A DNA stretch of 64,000 nt from a bacterium (GTDB lineage: Bacteria > Planctomycetota > Planctomycetia > Planctomycetales > Planctomycetaceae): the NCBI GenBank assembly GCA_016124895.1, contig WGMU01000006.1, positions 1 through 64,000 of the forward strand, in the 5' to 3' direction. Shown piece after piece: positions 42,123 through 62,806 of the stretch. Below the pieces are notes generated by a model. The model did not search any database and was not told the origin of the DNA. It worked only from the letters and a program-made list of their open reading frames with translations. Made by a program: the position numbers and the translations under genes. The number at the start of each line of letters is the position of its first letter. The stretch's first letter is position 1.

Positions 42123-42128
42123 AACGTT

Positions 42129-43493: not shown

Positions 43494-43561
43494 GGCAAAA
43501 CTCGACCGGCGCGTCCGGCTGCATTTGATGACTGAAAAGTTCACCGACGATGAAACCGCGA

Positions 43562-46030: not shown

Positions 46031-47317
46031 ATGCGGTTTCTTCACGCGGCAGATATTCATCTCGACAGCCCCTTGCGCGGGCTGTCGCGGTATGAGGGTG
46101 CGCCGGAGGAGGAGATTCGGCAGGCGACTCGAAAGGCACTGCAGAATCTGATCGGGCTGGCCATTGACGAGCGGGTTGACTTCGTTCTGATCGCGGGCGA
46201 CCTCTACGACGGCGACTGGCAGGACCATCAGACCGGGCTGTTCTTCGGAGCCCAGATGGTTCGGCTGAATGATGCCGGCATCCCGGTGCTGATGATCCGC
46301 GGCAACCACGACGCGGCCAGCAGGATGACGAAATCGCTGCGTCTGCCGGCAAACGTCACGCTGTTCGATCACGATCGGCCGCACACCGTGACGCTCGAAG
46401 ACCTGGGCGTCGCCGTTCATGGGCAGTCATTCGCAAAGCAGGCCGTCACGGACAACATCGCGTTGAAGTATCCGGTGGCCGTGCCGGGGCTGTTTAACAT
46501 TGGTCTGCTGCATACCTCATTGACCGGCGCCGAGGGGCACGAGAATTACGCGCCGTGCTCGACCGACGATCTGCTGCGGCTGGGGTACGACTACTGGGCT
46601 CTCGGGCACGTTCATGAGCGGCGGATCATCAACGAAGCAGGTGTCGGCATCGGCCAACCACCAATCGTCTTTTCCGGAAACATTCAGGGACGCCATATTC
46701 GCGAAGCAGGCCCGCGCGGCTGTTATCTCGTCACTGTCGAACCCGGCCACGCGCCTCTGCTCGACTTCCGGCCGCTCGACGTCTTCCGCTGGGAAGTCTG
46801 TTCGTTAAACGCCGCCGAAGACGACTCGACCGACGACGTGCTCGCGACCTTTGACGAGCAGCTTGCCGGGATCGTCGACGCAGCCGACGGGCTGCCACTG
46901 GGCGTTCGCATTGAAGTCGCCGGACGCTGTGCCGCTCATGCCGAGTTCGCAGCGCATCCAGAACACTGGCTGGAAGAATTCCGCAACGCGGCAACGCAGT
47001 CCGGACACGGTCGCGTCTGGCTGGAGAAAGCCAGCTTCCGCACGCAGCCGCCGCTTGATCCTGATGAACAGACCGACGATGGCCCGCTGCTGGAACTGCG
47101 CGGTCTACTGGCCGAGGTGCGCGACTCGTCTGAGCTGCGTAACGAGCTGACTGCAACGCTCGACACACTGCTGAAGAAGCTGCCAACCGAACTGACGCGT
47201 GGCGACGACGCGCTGCCGTTCGCAACTCCAGAGTCGTCGACGGACTGGCTCGACGGCGTGCTCAACAGCGTCGAACCGCTGCTTGTCGAGCACCTCCGCG
47301 GGGAGGTCCGGTCATGA
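46031..47317 (+). CDS. metallophosphoesterase, SbcD/YhaO-like DNA repair nuclease
   Basis: This 428-residue protein is a Mre11/SbcD-type phosphoesterase. Metal-binding motifs in order: DIH (D8, H10), GDLYD (56-60), GNHD (91-94), GLLH (H161) and GHVH (H193, H195). It has a capping domain after residue 225 with no long additional insertion. Mre11-type enzymes act with an SMC-like ATPase to process DNA ends. Its last four bases overlap the start of the next gene (ATGA), so the two are translated together. This pairing matches the Bacillus YhaO-YhaN arrangement better than SbcD-SbcC. The ATG at 46031 lies directly before the MRFLHAADIHLDSP domain start. Confidence 0.94.
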   Translation: MRFLHAADIHLDSPLRGLSRYEGAPEEEIRQATRKALQNLIGLAIDERVDFVLIAGDLYDGDWQDHQTGLFFGAQMVRLNDAGIPVLMIRGNHDAASRMTKSLRLPANVTLFDHDRPHTVTLEDLGVAVHGQSFAKQAVTDNIALKYPVAVPGLFNIGLLHTSLTGAEGHENYAPCSTDDLLRLGYDYWALGHVHERRIINEAGVGIGQPPIVFSGNIQGRHIREAGPRGCYLVTVEPGHAPLLDFRPLDVFRWEVCSLNAAEDDSTDDVLATFDEQLAGIVDAADGLPLGVRIEVAGRCAAHAEFAAHPEHWLEEFRNAATQSGHGRVWLEKASFRTQPPLDPDEQTDDGPLLELRGLLAEVRDSSELRNELTATLDTLLKKLPTELTRGDDALPFATPESSTDWLDGVLNSVEPLLVEHLRGEVRS

Positions 47318-50300
47318 GAATCCGGCAGCTCGACCTGATCGCCTTCGGCCATTTCACCGGCGAGTCGCTCTCGCTTAATCCTGGCGAAACCGGCATCGAC
47401 ATCATTTACGGACCGAACGAAGCCGGCAAAAGCACAACGCTGCGCGCGGTCCAGTGTCTGCTGTTCGGCTTTCCGGCCCGGACGTCCGACAGCTTTCTAC
47501 ACGCGAACACGAAGCTTCGTGTCGGCGCGACACTCGTTCTGCCTGACAGTTCGACACTGTCCGTCGTGCGCCGCAAAGGCAACGTCAAAACGCTGCGCGA
47601 CCAGCGAGACGATGAGGTCGTCGACGACGGGCAGCTTGCCGCGCTGCTCGGACCGCTGGAGTCCGACTCGTTCCGCTCGCGCTTCGCGCTCGACGGTGAG
47701 GAACTTGCGCGTGGCGGGCAGGCAATCGTCAACGGGCACGGCGAACTGGCGGCAGCTCTGTTTGCCGCGGCCTCCAGCGGACGGCAGCTTGATGAGTTGC
47801 GCAGCCGTCTTGAAAAACGAGCCGCCGAGCTGTTCAAGGAGCGGGCGTCAAAGCCGACGATCAATACGGACCTCAAGCGGCTGAGTGAACTCAAGGAACA
47901 AATCCGCGACGCCTCGCTGCCACCGGTCGAATGGCAGCAGACGCGCGAAGAACTCGATCGCCTGGATCAACGCCGCGATGAGATCTCAGCCAGACTGAGT
48001 GAACTCGAAGCAGCGATCAGACAGCGCGAACGCTTCCGCGACGCGCTGCCATCGATTGCCCGCCGCCGCGAAGCCACCACAGAACTCGAACGGCTCGGCG
48101 ACGTGCCCTCGCTGAGCGACGACTTTTCCGATCGCCGCAGTTCGACCGTCGCCGCGCTCGCCAGTCTGAGGCAGCAGATCGCGAGTGCTGAAGCCGATCT
48201 TGAATCACGGCGCGGCGGGCTCGACAAACTGGACGTGTCGGACGAGCTGCTCAGTCACGATGCGACCATTCGCGAACTCCGTGACGACGTCCGCCGCATT
48301 CGAGAACTGAGGAATTCAGTCGGCGATCGCGCGAGGGAAATCGAGCAGCTCAAGAAGATGGCAGCCGGTTGCCTGCGCGAACTGCGGTGGTCCGAGTCCG
48401 ACGAGCTGCCCGATTCGATGCGGCCGTCGTCGAGTTTGAACCGTCGACTCGATCAACTTCGCGGTGAGTTTCAGAAGTTGCAGCAGAAGCAGCACGGCCT
48501 GACCGATCGCGAAGCTGACCAGCAGGCAGCGATCAGCGACGCTCAGCAACTGCTCGCCGCGACGCCGCCGATTACTGATTACGCGGAACTGAAACTCGCC
48601 GTCGAACTCGCCCGCCAGGCCGGCCCGCTGGAACGGCAACGCGACGAGGCGCGGGCCGAGCAGCAGCGGCTCACTGCGAAACTAGATTCCGAACTCGCTG
48701 GTCTGACTTTGTGGACCGGCAGCGTCGATGATCTCGAACGCCTGGCGGTACCACTCACCGAAACACTCGACCGGTTCGAGCAGGACATCGCCGCGCTGGA
48801 ACAATCGCTGGCCGAGCAACAGCGAGAACTCGCGCAGACAAACAAAGAGATCTCGAAGGCGGAAATAAAGCTCAGCCGCCTGACCGCCGACCGCGATGTC
48901 CCGACCGAGCAGTCACTGACGGAAGCTCGCGAACTGCGCGACCGCGGCTGGCAGCTCCTCGCGCAACGGTTGCCTGGCATCAAGAGACATTCGGGAAGAG
49001 ACACCTCAACACTCTCGGACGAAGAAGCTGCATTCGTTGCTGCTGTGATCCCTGACGCGAACGCTGCGACGCCGGAACATCTCATCGCTGCCTACGAACA
49101 GACGCTGCGTCACGCGGACCAGATCGGCGATCAACTTCGCCGGAAAGCGCAGCTTGTCGCCGACGCTGCTGCACTGCGAAATGCGCTCCGCGAGTTGCTG
49201 CAACATCGCGAGGAAATCGAAGCGACTGTCGCCGCGACGCAGAACCAGCTTTCCGAACAGACCAGCGAATGGTGCGATCACTGGACGCCTCTGGAAATCG
49301 AGCCGCTGTCTCCGCGCGAAATGAAGGAGTGGTGTCGCCGCCGGCTCAGCATTCTCGAACGTGCCGCCGATGTCCGTTTGTCTGCAGAGAAAGTCGCGCA
49401 GCTCGAACTTCAGATCGAGCAGCAGACCCGGCAGCTTTCGGACCAGGTTCCCATTGAGAAACCAGCTTCACTGGCCAGCCTGCTCAAGCATGCTGAGGGC
49501 GAGCTGGCCGCGCGGATCGCTGCAGAAAACTCTCGCCGCCTGCTCAGCGACTCGCTGCAGAAAGAACAGGTGGCGCTGCAGAAACTGCAACGCGAGCGGG
49601 AATCTGTCGAGCGGGAACTCGCAGACTGGCAGTCGCGCTGGCAGCCGCTTGCGCAGGAACTCGGAGCTGCCAACGAGTCCGATCCCAACGTTGCACTGCA
49701 TCGGCTGCAGCAGATCGAAAGCTGGTTCGCGACGCGGGATCAGAAGGCGAACCTCGACACCGCCAACCAGCAGGCCCATGAGCAGTCGGACGCGTTCGAT
49801 CAGCGAGCCATGACTGTACTGACTCGACTGGCCGGCGACCTGCTGCCGGCCGCGGACCTGACAGTCGCCATTGAAGAGCTTGATTCGCGCCGCGAGTTGA
49901 ACCGGACGCTGGCGACGAAACGCGACCAGGCGCAGCACGAACTGCAGTTACGGGAAACCGGCCTCGAAGACGCGAAGCGGAAGCTCGCTGAGACAGAATC
50001 GACGCTGCAGTTGCTCTGCCGGGAAGCAAAAGCCGGGTCGATTGACGACCTGCCGAACATCGAACACCGCGCCGAGCTGAAACGTCGTGCTGAGGAACGT
50101 CTTCACACGGCCACGGAATCGCTGGCGACCTTCAGCGGCGGACTACCGCTCGATCAGTTTGCCGACGAGGCTGCAGTCTTCGCACTCGAACAGCTCGACG
50201 CAGAGATCGCCGAACAGTCAAGTCGACGCGACGAATTGCGGGCGGAACTTGACGACGTGCTCGACCAGCGTGGCAAACTCAGCGAGAAGCTCAGCGGCTG

Positions 50301-50892
50301 GACCGGCGAGAGCCGCGCCGCGCAGGCGAACGAAGATCGGGAAGGCGTGCTCGCCGGCATTCGCAGCGATGCCGAGGAGTTTGCCCGGCTGGTGATCGTT
50401 TCCGAAGTCCTGGGCCGCACCGGCGAACGCTATCGCGAGAAGCACCAGGGACCAGTACTCGGCCAGGCCAGCGAGCTGTTTCGCGAGCTGACCTGCGGCG
50501 CGTTCTCGGGAATTCAGACCGACTATGACGACAAGGGAATGCCGATCATTGTCGGCCTGCGTGGCGGCAGCTCCACGAACAGCGAATCGGAAACAGCCGA
50601 ACGCGTCGCCGTCTCCGGCATGAGCGAAGGCACCAACGACCAGCTTTATCTTGCACTGCGACTGGCAAGTCTCGACGAGTATCTGTCTCAGCACGAGCCC
50701 GTCCCGCTGCTGATCGACGACCTGCTGATCCGCTTCGACGATGCCCGCACCTCTGCCACGCTACGGGTTCTCGGAGAACTCTCGCGACGCACGCAGGTCA
50801 TCCTCTTCACCCATCACGAACACATCCTTGACCTCGCCAGCAGTACGCTCGACGACGACCTGCTGCACATCCACCGGCTGGATGGTCGGTAA
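47314..50892 (+). CDS. SMC/Rad50-like AAA ATPase, YhaN type
   Basis: This 1192-residue ATPase has an N-terminal half with Walker A YGPNEAGKSTT (residues 32-42), a very long coiled coil (about 170-1020) and a C-terminal half with the signature VSGMSEGTNDQLYLALRL and Walker B VPLLIDDLL. The switch residue is in LFTHHEHI. The coil carries no CxxC zinc hook: its few cysteines are scattered (AAGC, EWCDHW, LLCREA). This fits the YhaN branch rather than SbcC or Rad50. It is coupled to the YhaO-like gene, and GGGGAGG upstream is a good ribosome site within that gene. It likely works in DNA end processing or genome maintenance. Confidence 0.93.
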   Translation: MRIRQLDLIAFGHFTGESLSLNPGETGIDIIYGPNEAGKSTTLRAVQCLLFGFPARTSDSFLHANTKLRVGATLVLPDSSTLSVVRRKGNVKTLRDQRDDEVVDDGQLAALLGPLESDSFRSRFALDGEELARGGQAIVNGHGELAAALFAAASSGRQLDELRSRLEKRAAELFKERASKPTINTDLKRLSELKEQIRDASLPPVEWQQTREELDRLDQRRDEISARLSELEAAIRQRERFRDALPSIARRREATTELERLGDVPSLSDDFSDRRSSTVAALASLRQQIASAEADLESRRGGLDKLDVSDELLSHDATIRELRDDVRRIRELRNSVGDRAREIEQLKKMAAGCLRELRWSESDELPDSMRPSSSLNRRLDQLRGEFQKLQQKQHGLTDREADQQAAISDAQQLLAATPPITDYAELKLAVELARQAGPLERQRDEARAEQQRLTAKLDSELAGLTLWTGSVDDLERLAVPLTETLDRFEQDIAALEQSLAEQQRELAQTNKEISKAEIKLSRLTADRDVPTEQSLTEARELRDRGWQLLAQRLPGIKRHSGRDTSTLSDEEAAFVAAVIPDANAATPEHLIAAYEQTLRHADQIGDQLRRKAQLVADAAALRNALRELLQHREEIEATVAATQNQLSEQTSEWCDHWTPLEIEPLSPREMKEWCRRRLSILERAADVRLSAEKVAQLELQIEQQTRQLSDQVPIEKPASLASLLKHAEGELAARIAAENSRRLLSDSLQKEQVALQKLQRERESVERELADWQSRWQPLAQELGAANESDPNVALHRLQQIESWFATRDQKANLDTANQQAHEQSDAFDQRAMTVLTRLAGDLLPAADLTVAIEELDSRRELNRTLATKRDQAQHELQLRETGLEDAKRKLAETESTLQLLCREAKAGSIDDLPNIEHRAELKRRAEERLHTATESLATFSGGLPLDQFADEAAVFALEQLDAEIAEQSSRRDELRAELDDVLDQRGKLSEKLSGWTGESRAAQANEDREGVLAGIRSDAEEFARLVIVSEVLGRTGERYREKHQGPVLGQASELFRELTCGAFSGIQTDYDDKGMPIIVGLRGGSSTNSESETAERVAVSGMSEGTNDQLYLALRLASLDEYLSQHEPVPLLIDDLLIRFDDARTSATLRVLGELSRRTQVILFTHHEHILDLASSTLDDDLLHIHRLDGR

Positions 50893-50993: not shown

Positions 50994-51045
50994 CAGGTTT
51001 CAGAGAAACCTGACAGCCGTTGGACTGAGAGCGTCTCCGCTCAGT
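50994..51045. terminator. possible bidirectional terminator hairpins
   Basis: CAGGTTTC and GAAACCTG (50994-51012, loop AGA) give a perfect eight-pair stem in the convergent gap between the YhaN-like gene and the giant FHA gene. A second stem, ACTGAG with CTCAGT at 51024-51045, reaches into the giant gene's stop codon. No T-run is obvious, so the role as terminator is an inference from position. Confidence 0.4.
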
Positions 51046-54000
51046 GCGTGTGTTGCGAGGTCCAGGGGTTGCCACTGTAGGCGCGGCCCTGATTGATGTA
51101 TTTGTCGTAGCGGTCTTCCGCGGATTTGCGGCGGCTTTTGCGTGTCGCCTGCTCTTTCTTCCACGAGCTGGCCCGTTGCCAGCGGACAAAGGTGCGGAAC
51201 ATCTCGATCAGGGCGATCGCTCCAATGACGATCGCGACCCAGCCGTACGTCGCCCACGAGATCGTGCTCGTGAAATCGCTGGTGAGGTACGCGCCGCCCA
51301 TGCCCATCGCGATGACAGCCAGTCCGCAGTCCACCCACATTTTGCGGCTGAGCTTGCGCTGCGTATGTTCGGTCAGCGCGTTGCGAGCGGACTGGTTGGC
51401 GACATCGCGCAACGAAGTCATGGCCAGGCGACGTGCCAGCTCCCGGCTCTTTTCGCGGCGTTCGGAATCGTCCTGACCGTCCTCGACGGATGCGCCGCGG
51501 ACTTCTGACCGGTCGACTTCGGGACTCGTCGGTTCGACCGCCCGTGCCCATTCCGGCTCGACAACTTCAACCGGTACGTCGATCGAGTGTTCCTGCTCGT
51601 CGTCGGCCGCCGCTTCCAATTCCGAGTCGGCGTCGGCATTCGCATCGGCGTCTGACTTTGCCGGATCCACCTCGGCTGCTGGCGGATTGCCGCTCTGCGA
51701 GTCGTCTCCACGGTTGATGCCGAACATCGAACTCAGGATCGATCGGAACTGCTTCGCCTCGTCCTCTTCGTTCTTCGCGCCGGCCTTCGCCTGGTCGGCA
51801 AGCTCCGTAATCTCGACCGGTCCGTTCTTCTTCGCCTTCTTCTTTTTGCGGCGGCGTGAGCGGAAGAAGCCACGTGGCCGCTCGTCTTCCTCATCGTCAC
51901 CGCCTTCCAGTTCCTCGAGCGCCCGCTGAGCCTGCTCACGCTGCTGCGCGATCTCCTCGCGTTCCTGACGCAAGGCTTCGACTTCCGCCTCGACTTCTTC
52001 AATCCGATCTGTCAGCGAATCGTCTGCCTCGGACTCGAGCGACTCGTCAGCGCCAACCAGCAGTTCGTCTTCTTCATAATCCAGGTCGAGCGTGTACTCG
52101 ATCGATTCGTCATCGCCGACAATCGGCTCGAAGACATCAACAGTGGCCGAATGTTCGCGCGTCAGTTGATCGCGAAGCTGCGTCAGTTGCGTGACCATGG
52201 CCGAAAGCTGCTGCCGCTCGATGTTCCGCGCCCGGCGTTCGTGTGTGAGTTCCTGCATGGCCAGATCGAAGCGGCCTTCCGCGTTGTCGTGTCCGGTCTC
52301 ACTCAACTCGCGGTTCAGTTCGTCGCGGCGCCGATCGAGTTCGGCCCGTTCGGCCAGCAGGCTTTCAAGCTGTCGCGACATGACGGCGATCTGCGCCTGC
52401 AGACCTTCGCGGTTAGCCTGCAGCGATTTCGTGGCTCCTCGAATCTCCGTTTCGCGGCGAGCGATCGTGCGCTGCTGTTCGGAGAGCTTGCGACGTTCGA
52501 GGGACATGCGCTGCCGCATCTCCTGAACCTGCTGCTGACCGTCCTCAAATCGGGCTTCGAGATTCCGCAACTGAACACGTTCGGCTTCGCGGACCTGTCG
52601 TTCGCGGTGCAGTTCATCGAGTGCCGCTTCAAGTCGCAGTGCGAGATCGCCGGCGCGCCGACTGACTTCGCCGTTCTGCGACACCAGCTTGTCACGTTCG
52701 GTGTCGAGCTTCTCCCAGTCGAACCTGAGCTTCTCGCGGCCCGAACCGATCGTTGCCCGCAGCGCTTCGAGTTCCTGGCGTTCGAGTTCGACTTCCTCAC
52801 GCGTCCGGGTGATGTCCATCTCGCGCTGCGCGAGCTTCATCTTCTGGCTCGACAGCTCATCCTCACGAGACGACACAGTCAGGCGGAACGACTGCAGTTG
52901 TTCGGACTCAGCAGCGAAGTGCTGCCGCAGCGCCGCGAGTTCCGCTCTTTCAGTGGCCAGCTCGCGTTCCATCTCGGCAATGCGACTGCGTTCCGTGTCG
53001 CGGCTCTGACGTTCCCGTTCGAGTTCCTGCAGCGCCGCTTCGACGCGCTCGGCAAGCTGCTGCTGCGCTTCGGTCGGTTCCGCATCGCCCGTCATGATGC
53101 GTTCTTCAAGTTCGGCGATGCGGCGTCGGTCGGCATCGCGCTGTTCACGTTCAGCCTGCAGCTCACGCAGAGATTCTTCGAGCCGACTTGTCAGCTCGAC
53201 TTCCTTTTCTGCCAGCCCGCTGTGCTGCTCGGCGAGTTCGACTTTGCCGGCTTCCAGTTTGTGCCGTTCGGTGCGGATGTCGGCGTGCTCGCGGTTCAGC
53301 TCGTCCAGCCGCGAGTGCATGGCTTCGCGGTCTCCGTTGAGCGCCGTTTTTGCATCGCCCAGTTGCGTTTCCAGCAGTTCCAGCTTCTTCTTCAGTGCGT
53401 CGACATGCTGCCGATCGGCGACGACTTCCGCCCGTTCGGTATCCACGCGGGCGAGATCCGCATCGATGCGCGTCTTCTCAGCTTCCAGTTTCGCCTGCTG
53501 AGATTCGACCCTGGCCTGCTCCAGCGCCAACCGGGCTCGCTCCGCCGAGACTTCGACCTTCTCGGTCTCCAGCTCGCTCTGCAGTTCCGTGATTCGCGCC
53601 CGCTGCTCCTTCAGCTCTTCGCGATCCTGGCTGCAGGCGTCGCGTTCGGCATCCAGTTCTTCGCGAGCCGCAGCGAGTTCCAGCTCCTTCTCATCAAGGC
53701 ACTCCCGCTGCGCATCTAACTTCTGCAACTCCGAATCCAACTGTGCCTCGCGGAGTTCGACCTCCGCCCGCTGGGATTCCAACTGTTCGATCTCTTCAAA
53801 CAGCTTTTCCTGCTCGGATTCGAGTGCCACTTCACGGCGCTCAATACTGGCTGCCAGTTCGTCGAGTTCCAGTTGCCGCGTCTCAATTTCCGCCGTCTTC
53901 GCCGCCAGTTCGTCGGCCTGCTCAGCGAACGCTGCCTTCTCCGCGGCCAGCGTCGCCTGTTCTTCTTCCAGCGCGGCAAGTTCCAGTTCAATCTTCTGCT

Positions 54001-57000
54001 GCTGTTCGGCCAGCGCCTCGCGGTCAGCGTCGAGCTGCTCGCGATCCTCGTCGAGCTGGCGTTTCGAGCGGTTCAGCTCGGCGCGATCGTTCGCCAGAAC
54101 GTCGCGTTCACCGGAAAGTCGCTTCTGGTCTTCTTCCACCTGCAGTCGACCGAGTTCGAGGTCCTCTTCGCGGTCACGCAAATCCTGTTCACGTTCGGCG
54201 ATGTCATGTTCGAGCCGCCGGCGCGTCGCGTCAAACTCAGCCTGGGCAGCGTCGAGTGCTTCCTGCAGTTGAACAAGCCGTTCCGATTCGCCAGTCACGC
54301 GCTGCCGCTCTTCGTCAAGCTGCGCTTCGAGTTCCGCTCGTCGCTGCTCGAATTCCTGCCGCTCGCGTTCGAGTTCGTCACGCGTCTGCTCTGCTTCGGC
54401 CTGCAGCCGCGCAAACTCGACCCTGCCCGCAGCGCGAACTTCGTCTTCATTCAGCAGTTCCTCGCGCCGCCGTTCGATCTCCGCGCGATCGTCTTCGAGC
54501 GACTGCCGATCCGCTTCGAGGTCCTGCTCACGCGTCGTCAGTTCGTCTCGCTGCGAATCGAGTTCGGTCTGCTGCGCTGCAACGGCCTGCCGATCGAACT
54601 CCAGCCGTTCGACTTCCTGGGAAATGCCTGCTTCTCTGGCCTTCAGTCCGATTTCGAGTTCTTCCACTTCCCGCTGCCGGTCGGCGAGCTGAGCCATGCG
54701 CGCCGCGTGTTCGTCTCGTCCAGCAGCGAGCTGTTGGCGTTCCTCGTCAAGACGCCGCAGTTCGGCTTCAACTTCGTCCCGCTGCTGCTGAAGCTGCACT
54801 TGTTCGATGTGAAAGGCTTCTTTTGAGGCTTCGATCGCGGACTGCTCGATTTCCGCCCGTTGTTGTTCTGCAGCGAGTTCGCGCCGTTCAGCTTCAAGCC
54901 GGGCTTCCTCGTCGCGCAATTCAGCCTGGGCTTCCTGGTATTTCTTCCGGTCGCGTTCGAGTCGTTCGCGATCGGCCTTCAGTGACGCGTGATAATCGTC
55001 GAGTGCCGACTGGGCCGTCGCATACGCCTGCGACTTCTCTTCGAGCTTCGCCTTTTCGGACGCCAGTTTCTCTTCGCGTTTCTGCTGCTCGGTGCGCTGC
55101 TGCTCGAGATCGAGCCGTTCGCCTTCGATCTCGCCCCGCAGATCATTCAGCCGAGTCTGTTCGTTCTGCAGTTCTTCACGACTCTGCTCGAACTCGCGCT
55201 GCATGTCTTCGAGCTTCGACTGTTCGTCGCGGCAGCGGGCAAGCTGCACCGTCAGCTCGGAACGTTCATCGTTGATCCGCAGTTCGTTCTGCTTGAGTCG
55301 TTCGTCGAGTTCGCTCAGTCGTGCCTGCTCGACATCGAGTTCCTCACGGTCCGCGTCGAACTTCGAGCGGTCAGATCGCAACTGTGCGATCTGCTCTTCA
55401 AACGCGCGTCGTTCCTCGGCGAGCTGCGACGATTCTTCCTGCAGCCGGATTTCGTCCTGCACGATCTTCTGCCGCGTCGCTTCAACGTCGTCCTCGGTCG
55501 ACGAGGCCCGCTCGGCGAGTTCCTGCACGACAGCTCGCTGCCGCTTGAGTTCCTCACGTTCCTTCTCTGTTCGCTTTTCCGTTTCGTCGATCTGCTCCCG
55601 CAACTCGGCGAGTTCTCGTTCGCGTCGTTCGACCTGCCGTTCGCGCTGCCGCAGTTCGTCGGTCTTGCGTCGTGACTCTTCTTCGACTTCCTTCAGCCGG
55701 GCCTGCAGGTCATCGGCGTCGTGATGCGACTTCTGCTCCCACTCCTGTGCTTTCTGGTCGAGCTGCTTTCGCAGTTCAGCGAGTTCCTCCTGCTCGTCGC
55801 GGATCGATTTCTCCAGTGAGTCCGCGCGGAGAATCCGGTTTCGCAGCGATTCCGACTGCTGGTCAAGATCCCGCTGTCGACTGTCGACTTCGGCTTCGCG
55901 CCGTTTCAGAGACTCTTCGAGATCGCGCGTCCGCTGCTTGAGTTCGCGTTCGCGACGTTCGAGATCGTCGCGCAGTGATTCAACCCGGTGCTCGGTCGAA
56001 TCGAAGTCCTGCCGGTGTTTCTGCAGCTCGGCTTCCTGAGCCTTGATCCGCTCTTCCCGCTCAGCGAGGTCTTTCTTCTGCTGTTGCAGTCGCGTTTCGA
56101 GATCCAGCAGCCAGTGCTCCTGGGACGACGCGTCGACTGACTTGCGTTCGGCCTCGCTGAGCTGCTTGAGCAGTTCCCGCTCACGATCGCTGACCTCTCG
56201 CGCCCGGCGCGTCAGAAACTCTTCCTTGCGAGCCGCTTCGGCCAAACGCGTTTCCAGCGAGTTGCGTTGCGATTCGAGCTGCTCTTCCCACTGACCAATG
56301 TCGCGGTTGTACCGCTCAATCTGATCTTTGAGCGTCTTCTCTCGCATCCGCAGCGAGTCAGCCAGCCGTGTCAACTGCTTGCGGTAGGCTTCGTGTTCGA
56401 GGTTGTCGCCGTCGAGTGCGCCGGCCTGTTCCGTCAGTTCCAGAAGCTGCTGGTCGAGATCGCGCTCTCGGGAACGCAGTGACTCTTCCTGATCGGCAAG
56501 CCGCTGTTCGCGATCGCTGAGCCGCTTGAGTTGAGACTGCGCCTCCTCACGTTCGAGTGAAATGGTCCGCTGTCGTTCCTCAAAGTCGCGCTGCTGATCG
56601 GCCAGTTCGTCACGCTGCTGTTCAATCTCGCGGCGCAGCCGTTCCAGATCGTCGCGTTCGGCATCAAGCAGTTTGCGTGCGGAGTCGACGTCTTCCTCAG
56701 ACAGTTCGGCGTGTTCGTCCTGCAGCCGGTCGCGCATGCGTTCGAGCGATTCCCGCTGCCGCTGCAGTTCCTTTTCCCGCTGCTCGAACTCGCGCTTGCG
56801 GTCATCGATCTCGCCCTGCTGCCGCGAGTACTGGCTGCGCAGCCGTTCGAGTTCGCTCTTCGTGCGGTTGAACTCCGCGCGCTGATGTTCCAGTTCGAGT
56901 TCCTGATTGGCGATGTCCGCCTTGCGGCGGTCGAGATTGCGTTCCTGATTCCGGAGTTCCTCTTCCCGGTCCGCCTGTTCGTTACGAACCGTCTGCAGTT

Positions 57001-57697
57001 CGGCTCGCAGACGTTCGATTTCCTGACGTTCACGGTTCAGATCATCGCCGCTGCCCACCAGCGCAAAGAGCTGTTCGTCGAGTTCGCGCGCCGCCGATTC
57101 GCTGACGTCGCGTGAGGATAGATCGGTCAGCTTCTCTTCGAGTTCCCGGAAGCGGTCATCAAGCTGCTGCTCGCGCGTCCGCAGTTCCTGTTCACGGCTG
57201 TCGAGTTCCTTCGCCTCATACTGCAATCGGTTCTGCTGCTGAGCGAGCATTTCGCGCTGACGTTCCATCAGCCGGTCGTCGGTCGCTGATTCCGAGCGAG
57301 TGGCCGCGTCAAACTGATCGGTACCGACCGCCTGATCAATCTCTTCCGGCCGAGCCAGTCGCAGTCGAAACTCTGCCGGTCCGACGGCCAGCCGATCGCG
57401 TTCGGTCAGCTCGGTCACTTCGCGAATCGGCCGATCGTTCAGCCAGGTGCTGTCACCGAACTCTTTGACGACAGTGCTGTTCGGCCCGGAAACGATCACG
57501 CAGTGCTGCGGCAGAATGCCCTGCGCCCGAACCGTCAGCGTGCAGGCCCGCGACGAACCAATCGTGCATTGCGTGCCGGGCAGCAGCAGGATCGAACTGA
57601 GTCCCAGATGCTGCTGCATCGGCTCGATGATGAGAACATCGCGCACCGGACGAACGGAACGAACCAGAGAACCCGAGCTTGCGAACTGATCTGCCAT
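51041..57697 (-). CDS. giant FHA-domain, coiled-coil, two-TM protein
   Basis: This 2218-residue protein opens with an FHA domain (about residues 20-115: IGSSR at 46-50, H65, and N87 in WLND), a phosphothreonine-reading module. From about 135 to 1870 it is almost continuous coiled coil of E, R, L, Q and D with few breaks. A basic patch (RSRRRKKKKAKK), an acidic linker rich in D/A/E, and a helical segment follow. Two transmembrane segments close the protein at about 2122-2140 and 2150-2166, with a polar tail ending TSQHTH. It would be a very long, membrane-anchored, cytoplasmic rod with a phospho-reader at its tip. I know no characterised relative. Long plus-strand frames across it are antisense shadows of the coiled-coil codons. 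Confidence 0.88.
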   Translation of the reverse strand: MADQFASSGSLVRSVRPVRDVLIIEPMQQHLGLSSILLLPGTQCTIGSSRACTLTVRAQGILPQHCVIVSGPNSTVVKEFGDSTWLNDRPIREVTELTERDRLAVGPAEFRLRLARPEEIDQAVGTDQFDAATRSESATDDRLMERQREMLAQQQNRLQYEAKELDSREQELRTREQQLDDRFRELEEKLTDLSSRDVSESAARELDEQLFALVGSGDDLNRERQEIERLRAELQTVRNEQADREEELRNQERNLDRRKADIANQELELEHQRAEFNRTKSELERLRSQYSRQQGEIDDRKREFEQREKELQRQRESLERMRDRLQDEHAELSEEDVDSARKLLDAERDDLERLRREIEQQRDELADQQRDFEERQRTISLEREEAQSQLKRLSDREQRLADQEESLRSRERDLDQQLLELTEQAGALDGDNLEHEAYRKQLTRLADSLRMREKTLKDQIERYNRDIGQWEEQLESQRNSLETRLAEAARKEEFLTRRAREVSDRERELLKQLSEAERKSVDASSQEHWLLDLETRLQQQKKDLAEREERIKAQEAELQKHRQDFDSTEHRVESLRDDLERRERELKQRTRDLEESLKRREAEVDSRQRDLDQQSESLRNRILRADSLEKSIRDEQEELAELRKQLDQKAQEWEQKSHHDADDLQARLKEVEEESRRKTDELRQRERQVERRERELAELREQIDETEKRTEKEREELKRQRAVVQELAERASSTEDDVEATRQKIVQDEIRLQEESSQLAEERRAFEEQIAQLRSDRSKFDADREELDVEQARLSELDERLKQNELRINDERSELTVQLARCRDEQSKLEDMQREFEQSREELQNEQTRLNDLRGEIEGERLDLEQQRTEQQKREEKLASEKAKLEEKSQAYATAQSALDDYHASLKADRERLERDRKKYQEAQAELRDEEARLEAERRELAAEQQRAEIEQSAIEASKEAFHIEQVQLQQQRDEVEAELRRLDEERQQLAAGRDEHAARMAQLADRQREVEELEIGLKAREAGISQEVERLEFDRQAVAAQQTELDSQRDELTTREQDLEADRQSLEDDRAEIERRREELLNEDEVRAAGRVEFARLQAEAEQTRDELERERQEFEQRRAELEAQLDEERQRVTGESERLVQLQEALDAAQAEFDATRRRLEHDIAEREQDLRDREEDLELGRLQVEEDQKRLSGERDVLANDRAELNRSKRQLDEDREQLDADREALAEQQQKIELELAALEEEQATLAAEKAAFAEQADELAAKTAEIETRQLELDELAASIERREVALESEQEKLFEEIEQLESQRAEVELREAQLDSELQKLDAQRECLDEKELELAAAREELDAERDACSQDREELKEQRARITELQSELETEKVEVSAERARLALEQARVESQQAKLEAEKTRIDADLARVDTERAEVVADRQHVDALKKKLELLETQLGDAKTALNGDREAMHSRLDELNREHADIRTERHKLEAGKVELAEQHSGLAEKEVELTSRLEESLRELQAEREQRDADRRRIAELEERIMTGDAEPTEAQQQLAERVEAALQELERERQSRDTERSRIAEMERELATERAELAALRQHFAAESEQLQSFRLTVSSREDELSSQKMKLAQREMDITRTREEVELERQELEALRATIGSGREKLRFDWEKLDTERDKLVSQNGEVSRRAGDLALRLEAALDELHRERQVREAERVQLRNLEARFEDGQQQVQEMRQRMSLERRKLSEQQRTIARRETEIRGATKSLQANREGLQAQIAVMSRQLESLLAERAELDRRRDELNRELSETGHDNAEGRFDLAMQELTHERRARNIERQQLSAMVTQLTQLRDQLTREHSATVDVFEPIVGDDESIEYTLDLDYEEDELLVGADESLESEADDSLTDRIEEVEAEVEALRQEREEIAQQREQAQRALEELEGGDDEEDERPRGFFRSRRRKKKKAKKNGPVEITELADQAKAGAKNEEDEAKQFRSILSSMFGINRGDDSQSGNPPAAEVDPAKSDADANADADSELEAAADDEQEHSIDVPVEVVEPEWARAVEPTSPEVDRSEVRGASVEDGQDDSERREKSRELARRLAMTSLRDVANQSARNALTEHTQRKLSRKMWVDCGLAVIAMGMGGAYLTSDFTSTISWATYGWVAIVIGAIALIEMFRTFVRWQRASSWKKEQATRKSRRKSAEDRYDKYINQGRAYSGNPWTSQHTH

Positions 57698-58099: not shown

Positions 58100-59767
58100 A
58101 TGAACCGCCTCCGAACTGCCTGGCACTCCGTGTCGTTTATCACCGCCATCGTGATCGCCGCCCTGTCGAGCACCGCGCCGCTCGCGTCGGCACAGGACGC
58201 CGCAAAAGATGCCACGACGGCGGAGGCCCCGAAGATTCCCGAGATCGCGGACGAACCGCGGACCGTAGATCCGGCGACCATCCTCCCAGGGCCGGTCGTC
58301 AAACTCGCGACCGTCGAGTTCAAAGAGACGTCTCTCCGGGAAGTCGCGGATTGGATTCAGACAGAGTCAGGAATTGCTGTCTTCATTGATTCGACAGCAC
58401 TTGAAGGGGCCGGACTACTTCCAAGCGAACCCATCACGGATCACCTGCAAGACGAACCGATCTATTTCCTGCTCGATAGATTGAGGCTTCTCGACCTGTC
58501 CTGGTTCGTTCAGGACAACGTGATTCGAATTACGACTAACGATGTAGCCTTCGATCCGAACGAGTTTCAGACGACACCATACAACGTTTCTGACTTTCTC
58601 GACGCAGGCCTTCAGAGTGATCGTCTGATCGCAACGGTCAAGCTCGTCTCAAATGTGCATTGGGAAGAAGTTGACGGACCTGGAGGTAATGTCGAGCCAC
58701 TTGGGGATGTTCTGTTTGTTCGACAGACGCGTGCCGGACACAGGCAGATCAAAGGACTGCTGACGGCACTGCGGAAGCACGGCCGGCAGACGTTTGCTTA
58801 CGAACCGCCTCAGCACCAGACGCTACGGGGAAAGCTGGAAGAGCCGATCAGCGTTTCCATTCGAGATACTCCACTGAAGCTGGCGATTGCAGATCTGGCC
58901 GAACAGACGAAAACCGACATTCGACTGGACACAACCGAACTGAAATCAGTCGGAGTTCGCGACCGTGAGCAGGTTTCTCTGGTCCTGAACAACCGCCCTT
59001 TGCGAACAGTTCTTGAGCTGTTGTTGAGCAAGCACGATCTGACCTGGTCGATTCGGGAAGGAGTGATCTGGATCACGTCGCGAGACGGTGCTGAGTCGCA
59101 TCTCAAATGCGCTGTCTATGACGTTCGAGATCTTTGCCGGGACACCGGCGAATCTCAGGAACTGGCCAACGCCATTTTCAACCAGACCTCCAGCAATTGG
59201 GCAATGACGGGTGGCAGTGGAGGCGAGATTCAATTTCCTCAGCCAGGCACAATGGTCGTTCTGCAGACGGAACCCGGACACGAGCAGGTTCTGAAACTGC
59301 TCTCGACTTACCGGGAAGCACTGCTGATTTCCAAGAACCGAAAACGTTCAGACCCCGGTGACGAAGTCATCGATCACTATTACCAGATGCAACAGCCAAT
59401 CGCTGATGTACTCGCCAAAGTGCTGGTCACGCTGGTCGCTCCCGAAAGCTGGCGGTCGGAAGCCAGACCGGATGCAATCGGAACGATCCTACTGCTTCCG
59501 TCAAACACGGGATTGACAACAGGATATGCCGGAAAGGCCAATCAACCTGCAACAACTGCCGGCCTGATCGTACCGCAGAGTGTTCTGATCATTCGTCAGA
59601 CGCGGAAAAATCACGAAGAAATCAGCACGCTGATCGGCCGCATTCAGAACGGTGACCCGCCGATTTCGTTCGGCGGCGCTGGCGGCGGGATGGGAGGCAT
59701 GGGTGGCGGATTCGGCGGCGGTTACTTCTCGGTAAAGCCGTCTGTTGGCGCTTCGGCCGGACGCTGA
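58100..59767 (+). CDS. secreted protein with repeated secretin/STN-like modules
   Basis: This 555-residue protein has a signal peptide (residues 1-31, ASA-Q). Two modules look alike: a STN-type beta-alpha motif, LREVADWIQTESGIAVFIDS (79-98) and LKLAIADLAEQTKTDIRLDT (259-278), each followed by a 'WFVQDNVIRITT' or 'WSIREGVIWITS' strand pair. After each comes 'YdVsDfl', a glycine-containing turn, and a LFVRQT...H..I..LL..LR (205-225) or MVVLQTEPGHEQVLKLL unit. A third, partial copy ends the chain before a glycine-rich tail. The plan is like the N-domains of secretins, without a secretin pore. The 3' end overlaps the convergent lipoprotein gene by 46 bases. Confidence 0.78.
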   Translation: MNRLRTAWHSVSFITAIVIAALSSTAPLASAQDAAKDATTAEAPKIPEIADEPRTVDPATILPGPVVKLATVEFKETSLREVADWIQTESGIAVFIDSTALEGAGLLPSEPITDHLQDEPIYFLLDRLRLLDLSWFVQDNVIRITTNDVAFDPNEFQTTPYNVSDFLDAGLQSDRLIATVKLVSNVHWEEVDGPGGNVEPLGDVLFVRQTRAGHRQIKGLLTALRKHGRQTFAYEPPQHQTLRGKLEEPISVSIRDTPLKLAIADLAEQTKTDIRLDTTELKSVGVRDREQVSLVLNNRPLRTVLELLLSKHDLTWSIREGVIWITSRDGAESHLKCAVYDVRDLCRDTGESQELANAIFNQTSSNWAMTGGSGGEIQFPQPGTMVVLQTEPGHEQVLKLLSTYREALLISKNRKRSDPGDEVIDHYYQMQQPIADVLAKVLVTLVAPESWRSEARPDAIGTILLLPSNTGLTTGYAGKANQPATTAGLIVPQSVLIIRQTRKNHEEISTLIGRIQNGDPPISFGGAGGGMGGMGGGFGGGYFSVKPSVGASAGR

Positions 59768-60666
59768 GGCAGCGACAGATCGTCGCCCAGGCGAACGTAA
59801 CCGGGAGTCGCAGCGAGTGCGGGCGAAGGTGCTGGTTCGACAACCGCTCCGGCCGGTTCAACGTGCGACGCTTTCCAGTGACCGATCAGGTGTCCCGGAA
59901 TGACACAGGCCGCCGTGATTGCGAGGTTGCTCGGTGGCGGAGCGAAGTTGTTAACCTGGCCAGCAATATGAGAGCCGTACGCGGGGTACAGGATCTTATA
60001 GGCTTCCTGCTGCTCGCCGGTCAGCCCTTCGGAAGCCAGGAAGCTCAGCGCGTCGCTGGTGGCGATCTGCTCGTGACGCAGCGCGACGCCCGGCAGCAGA
60101 TAGGCCGCCGCCCACGTGCCTTTGTACTGTCGTCGCGAGAAGTCCTTCGCGTGACCGGCTTCGTGCAGCGCGATGGCCGGATGGTCCGAGTAGATGTTGA
60201 CCGTGTTTGTGAACGGGTTGTAGTGGTCGCCGCCGGTGATGCGTCCCGGAACCAGCGTGTAAGTCAGCGTCGCAATCGTCCCGAGTGTGTACCGCCAGCC
60301 CGGCGCGACCGATTTGTTTCCTCGCAACCGCCGCCATTCGTCCAGCGGCGCGTACTGATTCAGCCGCACCTTGACGCGGTCGAGATCGTTGGCGTCGAGA
60401 TACTCCTGCAGCGACTGCTCGGTTCCGTGCGACACGAAGTGATTGTCGACGCGCGTCGAAAGCAGCATCACCTTTGACGGAATGCCGACGATCCAGCCGA
60501 CGCCGTCAAGAATGGGAATCGGCCGCCCGCGTTCAATCTGCGCTTCGTCCGCCTTGAGTGGCAGGTCGTTCTCCGTTCTCGCTCGCGTCCCGTAGTCGTA
60601 GCCAGGCGACACGCAGCCGGAGAGCAGCGCGAGCAGACAAAGCGCGATCGGCCCGGGGCGTTGCAT
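59722..60666 (-). CDS. lipoprotein with HExxH metallopeptidase-like motif
   Basis: This 314-residue protein carries a lipobox (LLSGC, C18) after a short hydrophobic signal, so it is predicted to be lipid-anchored. The ATG at 60666 is preferred over 60711 because it begins exactly at that signal. At 168-172 it reads HEAGH (HExxH), followed by KDFSRRQYKGTW and, later, RHEQIATSDAL; the latter may supply a third ligand. This makes a zinc metallopeptidase likely but not proven. Its last 46 bases overlap the 3' end of the convergent gene on the other strand, and both frames there encode plausible tails. Confidence 0.8.
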   Translation of the reverse strand: MQRPGPIALCLLALLSGCVSPGYDYGTRARTENDLPLKADEAQIERGRPIPILDGVGWIVGIPSKVMLLSTRVDNHFVSHGTEQSLQEYLDANDLDRVKVRLNQYAPLDEWRRLRGNKSVAPGWRYTLGTIATLTYTLVPGRITGGDHYNPFTNTVNIYSDHPAIALHEAGHAKDFSRRQYKGTWAAAYLLPGVALRHEQIATSDALSFLASEGLTGEQQEAYKILYPAYGSHIAGQVNNFAPPPSNLAITAACVIPGHLIGHWKASHVEPAGAVVEPAPSPALAATPGYVRLGDDLSLPQRPAEAPTDGFTEK

Positions 60667-60792
60667 GACAGACGAACAGCGTTGTAATCGTGATTCGAGA
60701 AGGAATCGCATCGTTGTTCACGGAAACTGAAGACGGACGGGACGGAAATGCAACGCTGCAGTTTTCAACCGCGAAGCGGCGTAAGCATGTAG

Positions 60793-60812
60793 CCGTGGGC
60801 ATCAGCCCACGG
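60793..60812. repeat. hairpin palindrome CCGTGGGC / GCCCACGG
   Basis: Eight-base arms with the loop ATCA. First of three neighbouring palindromes in the gap between the lipoprotein and secreted-protein genes. Confidence 0.75.
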
Positions 60813-60837
60813 TTAACGTCGTCTAACACTTTAAAAA

Positions 60838-60882
60838 CCGCGAAGCGGCGACAGAGGAAACGCTGCTGTCGCCGCTTCGCGG
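60838..60882. repeat. 17-base perfect inverted repeat
   Basis: CCGCGAAGCGGCGACAG at 60838-60854 and its exact reverse complement at 60866-60882 enclose an 11-base loop. Such a stem is stable enough to be a transcript terminator, but the half-site recurs nearby, so a dispersed repeat is more likely. Confidence 0.85.
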
Positions 60883-60909
60883 CTGGTAGTTCCTGTTTGA
60901 TTGACTGTT

Positions 60910-60929
60910 CTGCGGGCTGACACCCGCAG
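60910..60929. repeat. hairpin palindrome CTGCGGG / CCCGCAG
   Basis: Seven-base arms with a six-base loop CTGACA. Third palindrome in the cluster, next to another CCGCTTCGCGG half-site at 60943. Confidence 0.75.
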
Positions 60930-61033
60930 CTACGTGCTGTCACCGCTTCGCGGCTCCTCTGCGTTGCGCTCCGAGCCCGGCCAACGCGCTTCGATCCCTC
61001 CGGGATTGCCGTGCGTTCGGGCTGCGATACTCG

Positions 61034-61879
61034 TCACTTCGACTGAGCCACGGCGTGAAGCACGGTCTGCTGGTAATCGCGAAACGAGACCCACTTGAGA
61101 TTCGGGTCGCGGAGTTTTGATTCCCAGTGCTGGATATGCTGCCGCTCCTGAGCGTGGAAGCCCCAGACGAATCGATGCTGCGCTTCCAGTATCCACGGCC
61201 GGTCGAACGCCACATTGACCTGCACGCGCAGCGGAATCAGCTCGCGGCGTTTCAGGCTGTTATTCAGTTCGAGCCGTGGGCCGGGAAACTGATTGCGGGG
61301 ATGCAGCACGTAGTTCAACCGCGCGGACCAGTCGGCGAACTGCAGATATTCCTCGGCGGCTTCGGGGACCTGAGCCGTTCCGCAGTCGACCTGATACGCA
61401 TACTGCGGGCTGTCCAGTTTCAGATGCTTCGACGCCGCAATGAACTCTTCGCGGAACTGCGGCCGGAGCTGAAACTTCAGCGGTCCGACGACCGACCGAG
61501 CATCCGCATCTCCGCGTTCTTCCAGTCGTCTGACATAGCTGGTCGTCTCGTCGCGGGCAGCATCGAGCAGTTGTTGAATCTGCTCGAACGAAACCGTCGT
61601 CGCGATCATCCGCTTACCATTGAAGATAATGAACCGCTTATGCGCAGGCTCGAAGACGGTGACCTCGCCGACGGATGGCCGGTAGCCAAAAACCCTGCCC
61701 GCGTGAAACACAGTCAGACTGGTCGCCACAAGTTCTTCCTGCGGCTCGCCCGGCGCCGCGTCCGGCAACGGCTGCACAACTTTCGTGACCACGCTGAACT
61801 GCTGAGCGACGCCCGTTGACGCTGTCGCCATCACGGTGAGCAGTCCCAGGCAGAGGCAAACCAGTTTTTGACGGTGCAT
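61034..61879 (-). CDS. secreted protein of unknown function
   Basis: This 281-residue protein has a signal peptide (residues 1-25). I do not recognise a family. It is rich in short amphipathic strands and helices, with VFGYRPSVGEVTVFEP and FIIFNGKRMIATTVSFEQIQQLL giving a beta/alpha region and TSYVRRLEERGDADARSVVGPLKFQLRPQF-like segments later. A single cysteine lies near residue 165 (DCGT). The C-terminus has clustered aromatic and basic residues (HFVWGFHAQERQHIQHWE-type). No membrane segment other than the signal is seen. It lies 27 bases downstream of the Gfo/Idh-type gene on the same strand, so they are probably cotranscribed. Confidence 0.72.
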   Translation of the reverse strand: MHRQKLVCLCLGLLTVMATASTGVAQQFSVVTKVVQPLPDAAPGEPQEELVATSLTVFHAGRVFGYRPSVGEVTVFEPAHKRFIIFNGKRMIATTVSFEQIQQLLDAARDETTSYVRRLEERGDADARSVVGPLKFQLRPQFREEFIAASKHLKLDSPQYAYQVDCGTAQVPEAAEEYLQFADWSARLNYVLHPRNQFPGPRLELNNSLKRRELIPLRVQVNVAFDRPWILEAQHRFVWGFHAQERQHIQHWESKLRDPNLKWVSFRDYQQTVLHAVAQSK

Positions 61880-61906
61880 GAGCTTCGACTCCGGTCGAAG
61901 TTGAGG

Positions 61907-62806
61907 TCAGGTGAGATCGGCTATCGCGACCGGAACGCCGCCGAGCCGTTCGCTTTCGAGCGCCGCCGCGATAAACCGCACGACGGCAAGACTGGATTCC
62001 AGGGGCACAGGCGACGTACCCGTTTCAATCGAACGAACAATTGCTCGCAGCAGGTTGCGGTAGGCAAACCGCGTCGACACAGGACCAGACGCGACGCCGT
62101 GCTCGCAGAAGGCCGTGAATCCGTAGGCCGTCGATCCGGTGCGCGCGCCGCGGACCGTACCGAGCCTCCCGTCAGCCCAGCGGCCAGTGACGACTTCTGC
62201 TCCCTCGTTGCTGATCGCCGAGACGCTTTCGCAGTCCGGACCCAGCAGCTCGAACAGCAGCTCGACGCAATGAATTCCGTAATGGAACAGACCAGGGTTT
62301 TTCTCCGCTCGCTTTGCCGGTCCGTACGTGATCACTCCGTGCAGATCGCCCCAGTTGGGACTGCTCTGAAAGTCGAGCACGTCCTGCGAGAACCTCATTC
62401 CCGACGAACTGAAACACAGTGCGTCGTGTTCGGCGGCAAGCTTCGCGATGGTCTCCGCATCGGCGACCGAACACGCGAACGGCTTGTCGACGAACGTTGG
62501 CAGTCCGGCTTCGAGGAACGGCCGGGCGCGTTCAAGATGCGCCGCTCCGCACAGCGAGAGGACGAGGGCAACGTCGACCTTTCCGATGAGATCGGATGGT
62601 TCGGCGACGAACGGAATCTCGAGCTGCTGCAGTTCCGCACGGAAACCGGGAATTCGTTCGGGAGCCATCATCGACTCGCCGCACCAGACGGCTTCAACGC
62701 GCGCACCATCAACGAACTGCTCGCGATCGACGCCCGCCTGATTGAGACGGCGCGCGAACTCGACGCAGTGCGACGAATCACAGTCGACAAGGCCGACGCG
62801 CAACAT
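61907..62806 (-). CDS. Gfo/Idh/MocA-family oxidoreductase
   Basis: This 299-residue protein is a short member of the glucose-fructose oxidoreductase/inositol dehydrogenase family. The N-terminal Rossmann region lacks a clean GxGxxG (it reads VGLVDCDSSHC). The family hallmark EKP is present as VDKPFA (117-122 region), followed by AETIAKLAAEHDALCFSSSGMRF. It should oxidise or reduce a sugar or sugar derivative with NAD(P), or has lost that activity. It lacks a signal peptide, so it is cytoplasmic. It precedes the secreted unknown protein gene on the minus strand and is divergent from ligA across a 527-base gap. Confidence 0.85.
   Translation of the reverse strand: MLRVGLVDCDSSHCVEFARRLNQAGVDREQFVDGARVEAVWCGESMMAPERIPGFRAELQQLEIPFVAEPSDLIGKVDVALVLSLCGAAHLERARPFLEAGLPTFVDKPFACSVADAETIAKLAAEHDALCFSSSGMRFSQDVLDFQSSPNWGDLHGVITYGPAKRAEKNPGLFHYGIHCVELLFELLGPDCESVSAISNEGAEVVTGRWADGRLGTVRGARTGSTAYGFTAFCEHGVASGPVSTRFAYRNLLRAIVRSIETGTSPVPLESSLAVVRFIAAALESERLGGVPVAIADLT

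Follow-up and report, generated by a model that had tools for sequence, protein, structure and literature searches.

The window, that is, the whole stretch of 64,000 nucleotides of contig WGMU01000006.1 analysed here, codes on its minus strand (51041-57697) for a protein in which an N-terminal FHA fold is followed by around 1,720 residues of heptad-periodic helix and, at the C-terminus, by a two-helix membrane hairpin. The open reading frame (ORF) of 2,218 amino acids that the original prediction for this DNA had placed there is found at these coordinates with an ATG start, and the start codon is backed by a relative of the same genus, whose N-terminus reads MADQFTSSGSLVRSVRPVR against MADQFASSGSLVRSVRPVR in the window protein. 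Five relatives with frames of 2,195 to 2,344 amino acids have the same layout, and the conserved relatives, which share both start and layout, exclude an antisense or chance ORF. The gene is composed as follows.

51041..57697, minus strand: whole gene, 2,218 amino acids (ORF and five relatives of like layout)
57356..57634, minus strand: FHA fold, residues 22-114, in which other residues stand in for the canonical phosphothreonine-binding ones (Pfam, fold model and triad count)
52118..57280, minus strand: heptad-periodic helical rod, residues 140-1860, with one hydrophobic position per heptad (periodicity, heptad model and alignments)
51488..52117, minus strand: post-rod linker, residues 1861-2070, charged and gap-rich among relatives (profile and alignments)
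51383..51412, minus strand: LRDVANQSAR, residues 2096-2105, the family motif SLREVANxSARxA (alignments)
51284..51340, minus strand: transmembrane segment 1, residues 2120-2138 (hydrophobic peak and model)
51185..51241, minus strand: transmembrane segment 2, residues 2153-2171 (hydrophobic peak and model)
51044..51184, minus strand: basic C-terminal tail, residues 2172-2218 (ORF translation and charge counts)

The FHA domain predicted at one end of the protein was identified both by Pfam PF00498 at residues 44-106 (E value of 6.5e-6, 26.9 bits against a cut-off of 20.7) and by a fold model of residues 1-130, built from eight sequences, with a predicted local distance difference test (pLDDT) score of 83.9. 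This model gave 120 matches in the PDB at E values of 0.001 or less, and most of the 50 best are named FHA structures, with the FHA domain of Chlamydia CT664 (CdsD, 3gqs) as the best match and mycobacterial FhaA also among the top ones; the beta-sandwich fold and the profile together place the domain in the FHA superfamily. FHA folds contact phosphothreonine (pThr) through a triad of Arg, Ser and Asn. For the Arg and the Ser this is borne out by R32 and S52 of SLMAP (PMC6323126). The complete triad is seen in 0/36 family sequences, a set that includes the window protein and close relatives and is not made of independent cases, against 17/22 of the other FHA domains of the same genome. Taken singly, the Arg is retained in one of the 36, the Ser in two and the Asn in two, with the His kept in 35 and a later Asn in all 36. 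The G-R pair is replaced by G-S, G-A or G-T in 35/36, the Ser at His-3 mostly by Ala, Leu, Glu or Asp, and the Asn-Gly loop is shorter; in an alignment of the family profile to the pThr-dependent FhaA structure 3po8, Gs stands opposite GR and GvaaqH opposite GVSRRH, and a two-residue gap takes the place of the 3po8 NG. The count leaves out L069, L070, L071, L093 (N-terminus missing) and L104, which have no recognisable FHA pattern, as well as L081, L083 and L087, whose contigs are those of L061, L059 and L071.

The window FHA therefore lacks what marks a canonical pThr-binding domain (Arg after the first Gly, Ser at His-3 and the Asn of the NG loop), and, judged from these residues, it is probably not a canonical pThr reader. 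The same genome has 74 Pkinase matches, 72 of them over the cut-off, so the loss of the triad is not for want of kinases, and the proposal of a phospho-reader under Ser/Thr kinase control is not supported by the triad counts. An FHA that ignores phosphate and docks a protein has precedents: in PrgH orthologues the phosphopeptide-binding residues are poorly conserved, pThr binding is judged unlikely and mutation of the proposed pThr residues of PrgH left secretion unaffected (excerpts of PMC3635987), and binding by the KIF13 FHA is named phosphorylation-independent in the title of a work cited in a passage of PMC10404244.

The rod had been described as about 1,700 residues of coiled coil, a claim that stands for the heptad periodicity, which runs over residues ~140-1860, and falls for the usual two-position core. 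Hydrophobic autocorrelation over residues 141-1880 was 0.45, 0.43, 0.43 and 0.39 at lags 7, 14, 21 and 28, with 0.31 at lag 56, and a single proline (1541) lies between residues 118 and 1857. A seven-state heptad model of the 1,721-residue rod gained 0.398 bits per residue against 0.056 to 0.073 in five shuffles (trained for 60 rounds on the rod and 40 on the shuffles), so the periodicity is above shuffle level, as in a heptad-periodic long helix. Hydrophobic residues fill 88% of one heptad position (Leu 58%) and only 4 to 15% of each of the other six. The phase breaks number 11, and seven are 3-residue shifts, that is, stutters. If straight, the rod would be 1,721 residues x 0.1485 nm = ~256 nm long, in line with the predicted span of hundreds of nanometres. 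Tandem expansion of the rod at the DNA level was rejected, the sole repeat being one two-copy 21-base unit.

What is missing is the second core position (+3 or +4), which scored 0.24 in the rod and 0.24 in shuffles (z -0.1), so the rod does not have the two hydrophobic core positions of a canonical two-stranded a/d coiled coil. The same test gave z 6.5 and 1.6 for residues 171-520 and 641-1040 of the SbcC-like neighbour and 2.6, 2.1 and 1.4 for residues 345-560, 821-1060 and 345-480 of MukB, two of these five control stretches also being weak. Among 13 rods of relatives the second position scored 0.16-0.30 against 0.20-0.27 in shuffles, and in L068 the main hydrophobic position is weaker too (0.63). 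The rod is 46% charged, and pairs of opposite charge at i+3/i+4 are enriched (z of 2 or more at 10 of the 14 position pairs), as fits a helix that gains stiffness from internal salt bridges. When the hydrophobic position is taken as 'a', the g-e' pairs of the window rod are 61 attractive and 40 repulsive, a weak preference (z 1.3), against 22 attractive and 44 repulsive when it is taken as 'd' (z -1.9); over four giant rods, the between-helix charge pairs speak for 'a' (z 1.1 to 2.4).

Global alignments of relatives to the window protein indicate that the length of the rod is constrained. The rod of G001 is 78% identical and gapless over residues 150-1850, those of G358 and G363 are 48% identical with two single-residue gaps each, and that of G007 (43%) is gapless over 227-1806 with one 21-residue gap at 226, so that within residues 227-1806 these three relatives of 43-48% identity show zero or one single-residue gap. 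In the rod of G327 (42%) we found five gaps of exactly 7 residues and one of 2, and in that of G328 (42%, from a frame without its N-terminus) gaps of 3, 10, 7 and 7. Over residues 227-1806, and with G362 set aside, the six relatives have 11 gaps, of which 7 measure exactly seven residues, and multiples of seven make up 10 of 19 once G362 is included, although gaps common to sister genomes (G327 and G328; G358 and G363 with G362) are not independent events. In the post-rod linker, the six more divergent pairs show numerous gaps of varied length. That the register is kept at ~43% identity marks the rod as a structural part under selection.

At the end opposite the FHA, the two predicted transmembrane segments are found as hydrophobic peaks at 2120-2138 and 2153-2171, and the structure model of the C-terminal domain consists of two long helices joined by a turn (pLDDT 80.1). 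With respect to the proposed bridging between two membranes, only one membrane anchor is seen per chain. The strongest signature common to the family, SLREVANxSARxA, lies just before the hairpin and has six invariant columns in 18 rows; its pattern is present in 43 of 46 members, and 42 of these 43 have a clear hairpin. As 16 of these frames were chosen by a pattern fixing R, A, N and A, only the other columns of the motif are informative, such as the Ala two residues after the last Arg (43/43). Basic residues average 3.5 before the first segment, 0.5 in the loop and 4.7 after the second, where a strongly basic tail of only 47 residues remains, and the loop is the least basic part in 40 of the 42 members scored. 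Under the positive-inside rule, by which basic flanks are cytoplasmic, this distribution puts both ends of the hairpin, and hence the FHA and the rod, in the cytoplasm. The C-terminal domain had no convincing match: the best E value was 0.17 in the PDB and 0.00091 in NCBIfam, the latter in a single member, and any one Pfam family matched at most 4 of 18 members (best E value of 0.0024).

A search for relatives combining an FHA with a C-terminal pair of membrane segments, which the original prediction had suggested, found them across the family of the window genome. From 20 loci fetched at first, 19 were kept, and L072 was dropped as an unrelated FHA protein, whose tail we take to be a PP2C/SpoIIE-type phosphatase. 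In alignments A1 and A2, 14 of the 19 carry the FHA and the hairpin domain in one ORF; L055 and L065 have an FHA and C-terminal hydrophobic peaks with no clear motif, and L069, L070 and L071 have the C-terminal domain with no recognised FHA. The C-terminal profile matched in 128 of the 170 family genomes (98 of the 130 good ones, 52 of 58 genera) and in 19 of 294 genomes of a sample of the phylum, of which 15 belong to the same family, three to the same class and one (G102) is a weak match (8.8e-4). The three members from the same class are short (630-773 amino acids) and also FHA-first, and all frames read with both ends range from 630 to 2,344 amino acids. The window genome has a second member, L101 (G000 contig C174), with an 889-amino-acid frame and no heptad rod. 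A short second copy was also observed in three related genomes (L102, L103 and L104), that of L104 with no recognised FHA.

The assumed planctomycete origin agrees with the named relatives, which are eight loci from planctomycete metagenome bins, one of them labelled Planctomicrobium, and Planctopirus limnophila, placed in the Planctomycetaceae by NCBI, the same family as the window genome. We identified G388 as P. limnophila DSM 3776, its second contig being 100% identical over 15 kb to NC_014149.1, and its family member has a frame of 1,169 amino acids on contig C1, at 1668112-1671621. Among the papers listed by searches of the open-licence literature, none describes this FHA-rod-anchor protein as judged from its title or the opening of its abstract, in keeping with the earlier statement that no characterised homologue was known. 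A genome-wide essentiality study exists for P. limnophila (PMC10632474); in its available main text the words 'FHA', 'coiled' and 'forkhead' are absent, as are locus tags in the number range that we guessed for the P. limnophila member.

The neighbouring genes in the window include the following.

46031-50892, plus strand: SbcD-like phosphoesterase and SbcC-like AAA_27 protein, with a four-base overlap (Pfam and NCBIfam scans)
58100-59767, divergent from the FHA gene: STN-like protein (weak STN match, 24.6 bits against a cut-off of 28.4)
38568-43544: RND efflux transporter and adjoining HlyD-type membrane-fusion protein (Pfam)

Neither the SbcCD-like pair nor the STN-like gene was found in the 20 relative loci, within their limited flanks, and a functional link to either was rejected, as they do not recur beside relatives. 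The three genes at 59722-62806 recur beside the same-genus relative G001 with no STN-like gene between, so the synteny suggested with a divergent repeat gene, which we guessed to be the STN-like one, is absent there. When 11 window neighbours were compared with the ORFs of the 20 relative loci, the only other match was that of the RND gene (38568-42122) to a gene adjoining a C-terminal fragment in G023. No secretion-system family was over the Pfam cut-off in 13 window neighbours, save for the RND/HlyD efflux pair ~7-12 kb away. A kinase-like gene cluster is present in 4 of the 20 relative loci, of which the Pfam scan covered the one in L062; given 74 kinase matches in the genome, we informally judge this to be near chance. 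A VanZ-like membrane protein was also observed by clustering, divergent beside L061, L063, L065 and L068; of the two scanned against Pfam, that of L068 is over the cut-off and that of L061 below.

In other genera, the divergent upstream position is occupied by a pair of genes coding, as judged by eye in both cases, for a ~420-amino-acid zinc-ribbon protein with one membrane segment and a ~520-amino-acid protein with a signal-peptide-like start. In P. limnophila the two divergent neighbours are a zinc-ribbon membrane protein of 417 amino acids and a putatively secreted one of 529. Examples from relatives lie at the following positions.

L130:1004-3843
L134:1983-4687
L062:10561-13451

The ~520-amino-acid protein is present in 159 of the 170 genomes of the family, and in at least 40 genomes of 15 genera (a lower bound, the adjacency being matched by eye from coordinates) its gene is divergent to the C-terminal domain, with match starts 3.9-8.3 kb apart; 10 further genomes have both on one contig and far apart, and in the window genome it lies on another contig (C34). 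Neither protein of the pair had a Pfam match better than an E value of 0.0023. One member of the ~520-amino-acid group showed a weak BamE-like C-terminus (E value of 0.13). The pair is the best lead to partners.

From the computed layout, family, register-locked rod, loss of the pThr triad and charge-based topology, we infer dimerisation, docking and tethering, and our preferred reading, to which we give a probability of about 0.5, is a cytoplasmic spacer or tether anchored in the cytoplasmic (inner) membrane that docks a partner without phosphate. The C-terminal hairpin would be embedded in the membrane, its two ends facing the cytoplasm, and the SLREVANxSARxA segment probably serves to bind a partner in the membrane or to keep the anchor together. 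The helix of the rod would probably form a parallel dimer through a thin leucine seam, with salt bridges along each helix, and the rod would set the distance between the FHA and the membrane, up to ~256 nm here and far less in relatives. The FHA tip would dock a protein with no requirement for pThr. A bolder version is a ruler of calibrated length, similar to golgin or SLMAP tethers, in which a phosphate-blind FHA keeps its partner, be it another membrane, the nucleoid or a machine of the envelope, at a set distance of at most a quarter of a micrometre; this we regard as doubtful, although conceivable.

Several observations weigh against a dimeric spacer that docks without phosphate. A rod whose second core position does not differ from shuffles gives no assurance of stable dimerisation, and the g-e' preference is absent or reversed in L058, L059, L095 and L098 ('a' z -1.4 to 0), which scored z -0.2 to 2.3 as 'd'. 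A close relative, G362 (45% identity), is without ~440 rod residues, in pieces that are not all multiples of seven. In the second copies the periodicity all but vanishes, with 0/16 windows heptad-periodic in the 889-amino-acid frame of contig C174, 0/15 in that of G001 and 1/20 in that of G363, and since the FHA is kept in members nearly without a rod, the family as a whole needs no fixed reach. The C-terminal model has a predicted template modelling score of just 0.47, the profile missed 42 of the 170 family genomes, no docking partner is known, and the loss of the triad, read from residues, would not by itself prove that phosphate is ignored.

The strongest rival is a self-assembling membrane-attached filament, in which the rods would pack laterally into cables or a cortex below the membrane, with the FHA as an end-to-end or lateral contact, in the manner of bacterial proteins of the intermediate-filament type. 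A long charged rod with stutter-type phase breaks, conserved in length and register and present in most genomes of the family, is what such a filament might look like, but L067, L101, L102 and L103 keep FHA and anchor with the rod absent or short, an indication that what is essential is the two ends, and we consider a filament rather unlikely. The rod could also be a monomeric single alpha-helix (ER/K type) or lie against another surface as a helix, and serve as a stiff arm with one FHA tip. The 46% of charged residues, the enriched intrahelical pairs and the single hydrophobic position per heptad would all suit it; a free helix, however, needs no stripe that is 88% occupied and locked to seven with few phase breaks, and we consider this arrangement improbable.

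In a kinase-controlled phospho-tether of the SLMAP type, the FHA would bind pThr on a partner and a phosphatase would release it, as the FHA fold and the 74 Pkinase matches (72 over the cut-off) might suggest; the complete triad in 0/36 (Arg in 1, Ser in 2, Asn in 2) makes it unlikely, the R32 and S52 on which the SLMAP docking site relies (a passage of PMC6323126) being the kind of residues lost here, and PrgH, with the same residues poorly conserved, is an unlikely pThr binder (excerpts of PMC3635987). An inner-membrane component of an envelope or secretion-like machine, as in YscD/PrgH/CdsD, would account for CT664 (CdsD) FHA being the best fold match and for a match to Yop-YscD_cpl, below the cut-off at 26.7 against 33.2 bits. 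The neighbours could be read in the same way, as STN is named for secretins and TonB receptors and at least 40 genomes have the other divergent neighbour with its signal-peptide-like start (by eye). Such a role is nevertheless highly improbable, as nothing but a basic tail follows the anchor at the very C-terminus, the same-genus relative has no STN-like gene (58100-59767, 24.6 against 28.4 bits) beside it, the other divergent gene lies on a separate contig here, and the 13 scanned neighbours include no secretion family over the cut-off except for the RND/HlyD efflux pair.

The analysis defines a protein family carried by the majority of genomes of a single planctomycete family, and for its C-terminal domain no convincing relative is known. 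What had been a 'giant coiled coil' is now testable as a register-locked single-seam rod with an FHA that would not need phosphate and a 1,169-amino-acid member in P. limnophila, and genetic tools have been reported for planctomycetes (parts of PMC4910669, PMC5394234 and PMC11958385).

Among known systems, matches to SMC, Rad50 and HmpF profiles of NCBIfam run along the rod, which a common coil composition would lead one to expect, but membership was rejected, the scores all being far below the cut-offs (SMC 105 against 567 bits, HmpF 90 against 200), and Pfam found no SMC/Rad50 ATPase head domains in the window protein. YscD, PrgH and CdsD share with it a cytoplasmic membrane-anchored FHA with poorly conserved pThr residues (excerpts of PMC3635987). 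Unlike YscD and PrgH, it has a rod between the FHA and the membrane and no periplasmic ring-building domain after the membrane segments, and the Yop-YscD_cpl profile does not reach its cut-off. The FHA of KIF13B was the only PDB sequence match of the single window FHA at E values up to 0.1 (0.032, with 'GILPEHC' against 'GILPQHC'); KIF13B is a motor protein and the weak likeness is confined to the FHA. Golgins and other long coiled-coil tethers can be likened to the window protein by description, although the latter is bacterial and has one hydrophobic position per heptad. The common element is a spacer rod conserved in length and divergent in sequence, an idea as in part of PMC5082667.

The order of FHA, long heptad helix and C-terminal anchor found in the window protein is also that of SLMAP, a eukaryotic STRIPAK subunit. 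The rod of SLMAP is far shorter. Both proteins unite an FHA with a coiled coil and a membrane segment (a passage of PMC6323126), and SLMAP has a C-terminal tail anchor (part of PMC2712456). The differences are that the SLMAP FHA binds phosphorylated kinases via R32 and S52, residues of a kind lost in the window protein, and that the anchor of the window protein crosses the membrane twice, as a hairpin, and carries a motif of its own; the likeness of the two proteins is one of description. The FHA-rod-anchor scaffold itself is thus of a known kind and not categorically new, and the family that carries it here is real and apparently undescribed, with an unusual rod and a non-canonical FHA.

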